Assembly: GCA_034423775.1 (NCBI GenBank)
Contig: CP139918.1
Span: forward strand, 310,001 to 374,000
Origin: Alphaproteobacteria bacterium US3C007
GTDB lineage: Bacteria > Pseudomonadota > Alphaproteobacteria > Rhodobacterales > Rhodobacteraceae
DNA: 64,000 nucleotides
Direction of reading: 5' to 3'
Shown: piece by piece, positions 42,060 to 43,637 of the stretch
Layout: each line of letters opens with the position of its first letter
How positions within the stretch are numbered: the stretch's first letter is position 1
Translations under genes and position numbers: made by a program
The notes under the pieces: generated by a model
Told to the model about the DNA's origin: nothing
Database searches by the model: none
Seen by the model: the letters and a program-made list of their open reading frames with translations, nothing else

Positions 42060-43637
42060 CTAGGAAGTCGTCTTCTTCGCTAGATAAAATCTCTCTAGTC
42101 GTTCTTTATATTGAGTAGTTCTATTATAGCTGATTAGCTGTGAAGACATAGCATCTAAGTAGTAGTCTCTGTCTAGGTGTTTGAAACTATGTATTTGCTT
42201 GTAAGATAGTCTATCCTGTTCAGCCTGTAGGTTTCTACCGACTACTTCAATAGTAGCTTCTTTCATAGTGTCTCTCAATAAATCAACATCATCTGATGCG
42301 ATAATATAGCTGTCGTGTACTGTAAGTATTGCCTTACCTCTGGTGGTAAAATGGTTGATAATATACGCAGTGATTTGGCTATCTAAGTACATTAAGCGTA
42401 TTCCTTGATCGGAACATAAGCTCTGTTCTAGATGTGGATTTCTTTGAACAAAACCATTCAGCAAAATCTCTAGTTCCTGATTAGTAAGCCGCTTTTCTAT
42501 ACTCCCTTTATCACGGCTATCTCTAAAAGCGGCATAAGCTGACTTGGAAGTTTTCGCATTAATCGCAGCTAGAATTAATGCTTTTACTGCCTTCCGCTGT
42601 GATGTTTTTGGTAGCTTTGGTAGCAGTTGAGACTTTAGATCATAGATGTCTCCAGAAACCTTAACCCCTGCTAAGGAGCTTAACATTGCTGCATGAAGTC
42701 CTTTGTAATCAACTTCTATAGTAGGTTCATCGTTGATATAAATTTGTCGCCTTAAATCTTCACTGATTTGCTGCCAAAACCCTCCGTAAAAACGACCGTT
42801 CATTTCCCATGAGCTTCTACTAAAAATGCGTCTCACAAATTTTTGAGTCTGATCAATTGGAATCTTCTGTCTGACTCCATTGGCTTCAGTTCTGAAAATA
42901 TAAGGCTCTTCAAGCGTTGGAATATCGATAAACGTATCTTTCAGAAGCGCATTATATTGCTGAAGCTCCTGTCTAATCTGCCTAGTATTGTCATCATCTT
43001 CGTATTCAACCAGTACTCGTTTCTTTTTAGTTCTATTTCCAGATGATACGGTAATGAAATTTCCTTCTTGGTCGGTGTCGAAATCCGTTAGGATAATGCA
43101 CTCCTGATTTTTGTTTAATTCGAGTTGGAAGCTTTCAATACTTATCTTCTTAAACAAAATACAAAGGGGGGCAGATGCTCGTATCCTTGAAGTGTGATTG
43201 AACTTCCCCGTCCCTTTTCGATCATAACTACCACCAAGTGTTTCTACTAATCGGTGATCAGATAAGATATCTACGACACTTCTTACTCTCGGAGAGATAT
43301 AGAGAGCATTGTAGCGACTATTTACTTTGTATGCGTCATTGCCTCTAGCGAGTCCTATGCTGAGTTCTGGATCAACCTTCCAAGCTACATATAAATCTAT
43401 CAAAACTATTTTAAGGTGGGTAAAACCATTCGCTCGGCCTTTATTATTGCTTTTACCTTCAATTCGCCGCCGCTCGTCATCGGAAAATGTTTCAAAAATT
43501 GAATGAACAAGTTCATTTATTTCGCCATGATCAGACCAACGGTGAACATCAAACGGTCTAGAGTGCCGAGGGTTTATTTGGCTTATTTCTTCCAGAATTA
43601 ATCTCAATATTAAATAAGAACTTTCACTCAATAGCAT
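42060..43637 (-). CDS. uncharacterised polymerase-like protein (family A / T7-RNAP-type palm motifs)
   Basis: About 525 residues, not a protein I can name. Three spaced motifs suggest a single-subunit polymerase palm: motif A-like EVDYKGLHAAMLSSLAG (Asp near residue 310), motif B-like RKAVKALILAAINA (Arg-x3-Lys, 348-352) and motif C-like ILTVHDSYIIA (His-Asp near 441). RFYGGFWQ precedes motif A. A winged-helix-like stretch lies near 105-155 (SPRVRSVVDILSDHRLVETL). No exonuclease domain is evident. ATG 43637 was chosen; GTG/TTG starts at 43661/43664 are in frame and no RBS is clear. The polymerase reading is an inference from motif spacing. Confidence 0.6.
   Translation of the reverse strand: MLLSESSYLILRLILEEISQINPRHSRPFDVHRWSDHGEINELVHSIFETFSDDERRRIEGKSNNKGRANGFTHLKIVLIDLYVAWKVDPELSIGLARGNDAYKVNSRYNALYISPRVRSVVDILSDHRLVETLGGSYDRKGTGKFNHTSRIRASAPLCILFKKISIESFQLELNKNQECIILTDFDTDQEGNFITVSSGNRTKKKRVLVEYEDDDNTRQIRQELQQYNALLKDTFIDIPTLEEPYIFRTEANGVRQKIPIDQTQKFVRRIFSRSSWEMNGRFYGGFWQQISEDLRRQIYINDEPTIEVDYKGLHAAMLSSLAGVKVSGDIYDLKSQLLPKLPKTSQRKAVKALILAAINAKTSKSAYAAFRDSRDKGSIEKRLTNQELEILLNGFVQRNPHLEQSLCSDQGIRLMYLDSQITAYIINHFTTRGKAILTVHDSYIIASDDVDLLRDTMKEATIEVVGRNLQAEQDRLSYKQIHSFKHLDRDYYLDAMSSQLISYNRTTQYKERLERFYLAKKTTS

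Follow-up and report, generated by a model that had tools for sequence, protein, structure and literature searches.

In a 64,000-nucleotide stretch of the genome of Alphaproteobacteria bacterium US3C007 (contig CP139918.1, positions 310,001 to 374,000; this whole stretch is called the window below), we found a polymerase gene and a tyrosine integrase gene on the two segments of a small element that is integrated at a tRNA-Arg gene. The polymerase is probably a stand-alone A-family enzyme of the TV-Pol type that serves the element as its replication protein (primase and/or polymerase).

A two-segment element at the tRNA-Arg gene

The element measures 7,009 bp, from 41682/41697 to 48691/48706 (Table 1). 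This size was deduced from an empty site in G293, a single-contig genome of the same genus, in which everything between the outer cores is absent: window positions 41605–41697 and 48691–51704 align to neighbouring stretches of G293 that overlap by the 16-bp core. A self-comparison of the island revealed two pairs of inverted repeats; where the pairs meet, inside the element, they share 16 bp that correspond to the 3′ end of tRNA-Arg. Copies of this 16-mer lie on the plus strand at 41682 (with one mismatch) and 48691 and on the minus strand at 46083, with no other match to the pattern in the host genome; the outer two cores are direct and the middle one is inverted. The first repeat frames the polymerase gene, a feature that a preliminary description of this gene, made from the sequence alone, had not mentioned. 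The polymerase segment contains the polymerase gene, a YgjP-like peptidase gene and a copy of an insertion sequence (IS), and the integrase segment contains a serine hydrolase gene and the integrase gene.

Recurrence of the layout

Is this layout peculiar to the window? We scanned 103 loci, some of them overlapping, for a chain of two inverted repeats with a common short core and obtained ten rows, which represent eight distinct elements: that of the window, L083, L085, L090, L095, L130, L040 and L055 (L053 and L054 duplicate L090 and L130). The core is the 3′ end of tRNA-Gln in six of them and of tRNA-Arg in one; that of L095 was left unassigned. The repeats are 121–707 bp long, and the polymerase and the integrase lie on opposite segments in seven of the eight elements. 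In L095, the replication segment carries a D5_N/DUF5906 protein, and a polymerase gene (9995–11569) is located 2 kb outside the two-segment element (13557–21222).

Loci were also assembled from the polymerase side. A scan of a species-genome collection yielded 163 relatives, of which 79 loci were kept, by their titles mainly Rhodobacterales and SAR116; together with the three other copies in the host genome and the window, these form a set of 83 loci. In 19 of the 83 (15 of the 47 with 3-kb flanks), an inverted repeat at least 100 bp long and at least 90% identical was present no more than 800 bp from the polymerase, against a background of 297 of 4,576 random stretches (6.5%) from the same loci, some of which may hit an element's own second repeat.

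A third search, for exact matches to the tRNA-Gln core, which misses cases, detected the core in 218 of 292 genomes of the order Rhodobacterales, and a reversed control pattern in none of the 292. Both orientations were found in 21 genomes, within 25 kb on one contig in 12 and on different contigs in nine, which were set aside; all 12 same-contig cases have long inverted repeats. Twenty genomes carry direct extra copies of the core alone, and six of these were checked for repeats. In G082, an inverted repeat of 127 bp lies at the polymerase (L081/L044), and in G036 an inverted pair of 129 bp (L059) appeared in a wider stretch, with none of at least 60 bp in a narrower one, whereas L155, L156 and L157 have no inverted repeat of at least 60 bp and G004 (L045) none of at least 40 bp. 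Some of the genomes are drafts; however, because those of the window and G293 are single contigs and the cases in G116, G147, G181 and G182 lie deep inside contigs of more than 3 Mb, assembly error is an unlikely cause of the layout. One locus, L149 (G209:C9, 284–13171), has four tRNA-Gln cores of alternating orientation in the order integrase–replication–integrase, with two integrase copies.

Probable flipping of the segments

Two observations bear on whether the segments move relative to each other. First, among the 17 loci with the tRNA-Gln gene in view (including L074, L076, L097 and L117, which have no repeat near the gene), the polymerase points in the same direction as the tRNA in eight and in the opposite direction in nine, and five changes of orientation are needed on the tree (the starred branches force four), compared with a shuffled mean of 6.0. 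Second, in 15 elements picked for clear repeats, 20 of the 25 within-element arm pairs are at least 98% identical (range 87.8–100%; the integrase-side pair of L146 was trimmed by hand), whereas between elements, among the 40 longest of 184 matches, the longest, between two Ruegeria, extends over 284 bp at 92%, the next over 117 bp at 74%, and shorter ones reach 90% over 78 bp. The arms being near-identical within elements and unlike between them, we deduced that they evolve together within each element. Together with the changes of orientation, this indicates that the polymerase segment probably flips, which may be brought about by the integrase or by homologous recombination. Those orphan gene ends in islands that we followed proved to be arms running into a gene or decayed remnants, and the two-segment layout also accounts for many scattered polymerase-end fragments in these islands, as mirror-image repeat arms.

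The integrases of these elements fall into branches. That of the tRNA-Gln type is 24% identical to the window integrase, which in turn is 53% identical to that of L095; because all three carry DUF6538, we regard them as distant kin within one group, not as unrelated enzymes. Since the layout is found with two distant branches of integrase and two kinds of replication protein (see below), and since the arms are kept alike, the two-segment layout itself seems to be under selection.

The same structure could be an inversion switch that changes how the replication gene or the integrase is expressed and has no part in copying. Both orientations do exist among the relatives, the repeats reach up to and into gene ends, and a tRNA-targeting tyrosine integrase, Int-pTN3 of the Thermococcus plasmid pTN3, has been shown in vitro to invert DNA that lies between att sites of opposite orientation (PMC5495485). 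Nevertheless, we judge repeats of 121–707 bp to be long for a simple switch, and, whichever way it points, the gene is intact in the elements that we read, promoters not having been searched for; we therefore hold a switch to be unlikely. Equally, the repeats might be functionless, passive scars left behind by the insertion of an inverted dimer. Arms that hold broken polymerase or integrase ends are what would be expected once duplicated genes had been lost, decayed remnants exist (L158), and some arms have diverged (88–96%). However, scars would decay, whereas most arms remain near-identical within an element and unlike those of other elements, and the layout recurs with both integrase branches and both replication proteins. 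This explanation, too, is not a likely one.

The slot of the probable replication protein

The content of the small segment in the 12 same-contig tRNA-Gln cases is informative about the function of the polymerase. One occupant (G196) was left unassigned, and in the 11 resolved cases the segment holds the polymerase in five (G041, G116, G160, G181, G251) and a DUF5906 protein, a D5-type helicase, in another five (G052, G147, G182, G209, G275; assigned by Pfam for three and by homology for two); the eleventh is considered below. In nine of the 12, a full-length integrase is found on the other side of the core from the small segment (in G275 the stretch is cut by a contig end); G196 has its integrase in the sole visible segment, and G052 has a partial copy. 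Each integrase branch is found with both kinds of replication protein. Because the polymerase and DUF5906 interchange in one slot, we infer that the polymerase performs the replication job, and this interchange supports its role as the replication protein of the element. The integrase is, moreover, the only frequent neighbour of the polymerase, with 54 proteins in 47 of the 83 loci at a median distance of 2.7 kb; the next clusters reach nine loci. The preliminary description had offered three roles in a mobile element, namely replication, defence and telomere-like terminal synthesis; the helicase interchange and the integrase association favour replication, and the PADLOC profiles returned nothing in support of defence.

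It could still be argued that the gene is carried as cargo, such as a polymerase for defence against phages, because integrase islands commonly hold defence genes. Two-segment elements do carry other cargo, namely a reverse transcriptase (L146, 7871–9418) and an AIPR protein (L090, 14987–16231), and in L151 a guanylate cyclase with Cache and HAMP domains (1775–3628) occupies this very slot. In addition to the empty PADLOC result, however, the polymerase is the only sizeable open reading frame (ORF) of its segment in L090 and L130, the alternative occupant in five of the 11 resolved cases is a replication helicase, and relatives are present in 176 phage records, so that we consider a cargo role quite improbable.

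The polymerase and its family

The preliminary description had located the gene correctly: the ORF runs on the minus strand from an ATG at 43637 to a stop codon at 42060–42062, and an upstream TTG start would extend the product to 534 amino acids (aa). The motifs that it had pointed out are likewise present and in the order claimed, with D310 in DYKGLH, then R348-x3-K352, then H441-D442-S443 in VHDS. G281-R282, E308, D310, R348, K352, H441 and D442 are invariant both in an alignment of 22 sequences, the window protein included, and in a very diverse one of 20, which combines the window protein with proteins from islands, prophages and Vibrio, Aeromonas, Shewanella and Rheinheimera phages. H315, N360 and S443 are invariant in the former and nearly so in the latter, in which D330 is kept in at least 90% of the sequences. 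Because 1,344 of 7,994 candidates scored were relatives at E ≤ 1e-3, the gene is evidently real and conserved. The 120 relatives listed are unnamed or ‘hypothetical’, except for P0072, whose UniRef name begins ‘DNA-directed RNA pol’.

As the preliminary description had stated, no known domain is recognised in the protein. Pfam gave PF00940 RNA_pol at E=0.022, which falls short of the family cut-off, and no nuclease domain; the NCBIfam and PADLOC profiles gave no match; and PHROGs gave phrog_4756 (E=2.4e-50), a family of unknown function into which the three other host-genome copies and the relatives in phages KASIA and Barba35A also fall. The suggested winged-helix-like region ahead of the palm was weakly borne out. 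Structure prediction backed the family A/T7-RNA polymerase (RNAP)-like palm put forward in that description: the model contains a right-hand palm, the lack of which would, by that description, have refuted the reading, and A-family polymerases, mitochondrial RNAPs among them, were the only structural matches among the best 50 listed for each search. The protein also has the two putative catalytic Asp residues (D310 and D442) and, in motif B, the RxxxK (R348, K352) of A-family enzymes.

The preliminary description could not name the family. The closest described one is TV-Pol, which fits most, but not all, of the features tested. This family was described by Iyer, Abhiman and Aravind in 2008 (PMC2579912), who named members in Rhodobacterales, predicted primase and polymerase activity and noted a subset in the neighbourhood of lambda-type integrases. 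That paper sets out TV-Pols as a minimal, nuclease-free A-family core, which is found in mobile elements with a lambda-type integrase and is marked by RxxxK, a conserved Arg, two Asp and a further Asp in the fingers (PMC2579912). The window protein has R282 ahead of motif A, D330, R348/K352 and D310/D442 and no nuclease match, and it lies in a mobile element with an integrase, as expected of a family whose elements have a lambda-type integrase, resolvase or transposase. The Arg of TV-Pols lies on a beta-hairpin, and here that region (aa 261–285) is poorly predicted, with a predicted local distance difference test (pLDDT) score below 50; of the thumb of two antiparallel helices, the moderate model shows one long helix (216–233) ahead of the palm. 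Part of the family is linked to D5-like helicases, of which there is none in the window element and, by eye, none among the neighbour clusters common to at least four of the 83 loci; whereas some TV-Pols neighbour or are fused with D5 helicases (PMC2579912), here a D5/DUF5906 protein substitutes for the polymerase. The word ‘inverted’, furthermore, is nowhere used in the main text of that paper. Microcystis phage Ma-LMM01, a named TV-Pol source, showed no significant profile match among its 197 frames; gp030, beside a transposase, aligned weakly around GR and motif A (P=0.0069).

To our knowledge, the SCCmec enzyme CCPol-MP is the only TV-Pol-type enzyme tested experimentally in the open-licence literature. 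In 2020 its authors stated that they knew of no other such member that had been tested (PMC7581432). CCPol-MP, too, is a stand-alone, exonuclease-free A-family polymerase of a site-specifically integrating element (PMC7581432, PMC10061031), and it primes DNA together with a partner protein (PMC7581432). By contrast with our element, however, it is accompanied by a small partner resembling single-stranded DNA-binding proteins and by a helicase, its element uses large serine recombinases (PMC7581432, PMC10061031), and it keeps Glu and Phe sugar-gate residues, where the window protein has His315 and Leu356 in motifs aligned by eye. Apart from the integrase, no neighbour cluster that could represent a fixed partner was found in more than nine of the 83 loci, oligonucleotide-binding (OB) folds not having been searched for.

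That the protein is a T7 gp1-like single-subunit RNAP transcribing element or phage genes is very improbable: in its favour are a VHDS motif C as in T7 RNAP with the weak profile match described below, the sub-threshold RNA_pol match, the mitochondrial RNAPs among the structural matches and the name of P0072, but the two Asp residues are 132 residues apart as against about 275 in T7 RNAP, Asn360 takes the place of the motif B Tyr, in Shewanella phage KASIA a large protein annotated as RNA polymerase and the relative are encoded by separate genes (L061, 2699–5338 and 7506–8855), and the slot in sister elements is occupied by a DUF5906 helicase, not by a transcription protein.

Points against the proposed role

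Several observations weigh against a TV-Pol-type replication protein in a two-segment element. The first structure model was moderate (pLDDT 73, predicted template modelling score 0.56). A profile–profile comparison, as suggested in the preliminary description, gave a weak signal for T7-like RNAPs (probability 17%, P=0.0014) and nothing significant for PolA (0.1%, P=0.45); as a yardstick, PolA against RNAP itself scores 0.7% with equally small alignments. No origin-like iterons were found in the scanned regions 41682–43700 and 46083–48706. Among the 12 tRNA-Gln cases, the small segment of one (G262) holds a guanylate cyclase instead of a replication gene, and another (G182) has no integrase. 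The DUF6538 shared by the integrase branches favours passive scars somewhat. Many polymerase loci have no inverted architecture, repeats lying near the gene only in the 19 loci mentioned above, and a tRNA-linked direct repeat brackets the polymerase in 24 of the 83, six of which also have inverted repeats by a looser measure; more distant relatives, as well as two other host-genome copies (L007, L008), are located in simple elements with direct tRNA repeats. On the polymerase tree, on which 43 of the 80 rows are unlabelled, the layout requires two changes compared with a shuffled mean of 12.2 and is thus clustered, and the window is the only two-segment case in its own nine-row clade. Seen from the polymerase, the layout may therefore go back to just one or two origins.

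Distribution and neighbouring genes

The host genome has four copies of the polymerase, whose matched parts are 100, 39, 38 and 34% identical to the query, and 51 of the 292 genomes of the order contain a match. In a Vibrio phage, the gene directly after the relative is annotated as a putative homing endonuclease (L065, 4476–6635), and in a prophage a 143-aa ORF follows it (L001, 7812–9967); Pfam at 1e-3 detected no domain in either downstream neighbour, and a GIY-YIG reading of that in L001 was withdrawn. A prophage-like contig, L002, combines two relatives (3087–4397, 7816–8835) with a tyrosine integrase and a C5-cytosine methyltransferase.

In the window, the 1,199-bp IS, which we take to be of the IS3 type, is present as identical copies at 35956–37154 and 44736–45934. 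A second tyrosine integrase gene (38295–39587, minus strand), related to the integrase beside the host-genome copy in L009, contains an in-frame stop at 39225–39227. Two ORFs that by eye resemble ABC-transporter permeases (39689–41623) lie in a 1.9-kb stretch that is missing from G293 and is flanked by a direct repeat of about 19 bp.

Table 1. Features of the window element and of the putative polymerase that it encodes
Feature	Position	Strand	Remarks
Putative A-family (TV-Pol-like) polymerase gene	42060..43637	-	525 aa; ORF call, alignments, predicted structure
Protein layout	winged-helix-like N-terminus ~aa 35-170; helix ~aa 216-233; palm/fingers ~aa 281-466		predicted
Protein residues	GR 281-282; motif A D310; fingers D330; R348xxxK352; motif C H441-D442-S443
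Outer att-like core, left end of element	41682..41697	+	one mismatch to tRNA-Arg 3′ end
Inverted repeat 1, outer arm	41682..41845	+	164 bp, 98.8% identical to partner
YgjP-like metallopeptidase, cargo of polymerase segment	43750..44445	-	PF01863, E=4.2e-62
IS element, two-ORF transposase	44736..45934	-	PF01527; rve core; abuts inner arm of inverted repeat 1
Inverted repeat 1, inner arm	45935..46098	-
Middle att-like core	46083..46098	-	inverted relative to the outer two; common to both inverted repeats
Inverted repeat 2, inner arm	46083..46203	-	121 bp, 99.2% identical to partner
Serine hydrolase, beta-lactamase family, cargo of integrase segment	46232..47350	-	PF00144, E=3.7e-16
Tyrosine integrase	47412..48602	-	396 aa; PF20172 DUF6538 and PF00589
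Inverted repeat 2, outer arm	48586..48706	+
Outer att-like core, right end of element	48691..48706	+	3′ end of the tRNA gene
tRNA-Arg(acg), integration target	48691..48767	-

Comparison with known systems and a possible mechanism

A known system of comparable plan is the yeast 2-micron plasmid with its recombinase Flp (PMC3737535). It is a circle in which two unique regions lie between two long inverted repeats, each with a site for its own tyrosine recombinase; it is an extrachromosomal eukaryotic plasmid and is not known to have a polymerase of its own. The window element resembles it in that two inverted repeats with recombinase sites divide two unique regions, and differs in that it integrates at a bacterial tRNA gene. 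This 2-micron-like plan was deduced from the integrated sequence and its ends, from which a circle would follow. Int-pTN3 is similar to our integrase as a tRNA-targeting enzyme able to invert DNA between inverted att sites; however, it inverts chromosomal segments (PMC5495485), and pTN3 itself is not known to us to consist of two inverted segments.

The element was probably inserted at the 3′ end of tRNA-Arg by its own tyrosine integrase, and it consists of a replication-gene segment and an integrase segment, each within near-identical inverted repeats that end in tRNA 3′-end cores. We speculate that its cycle might proceed as follows. Recombination between the outer cores would release a circle, in which two inverted full att copies separate the two unique regions. 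The polymerase, or the D5/DUF5906 helicase in sister elements, would start replication, by copying or priming its own element, and if the integrase flipped one segment against the other during replication, double-rolling-circle amplification could result. The elements would then be bacterial counterparts of the yeast 2-micron plasmid, with flipping coupled to replication. By analogy we offer this amplification route tentatively, as a possibility that we consider, on balance, unlikely.

An enzyme family that was predicted in 2008 is found here in a compact element with exact ends, an empty reference site and a single-contig genome, so that its role is directly testable. If the proposed mechanism is true, one enzyme would serve for integration, excision and copy-number control, and, should flipping be coupled to copying, these elements would represent a bacterial version of the strategy known from the yeast 2-micron plasmid.
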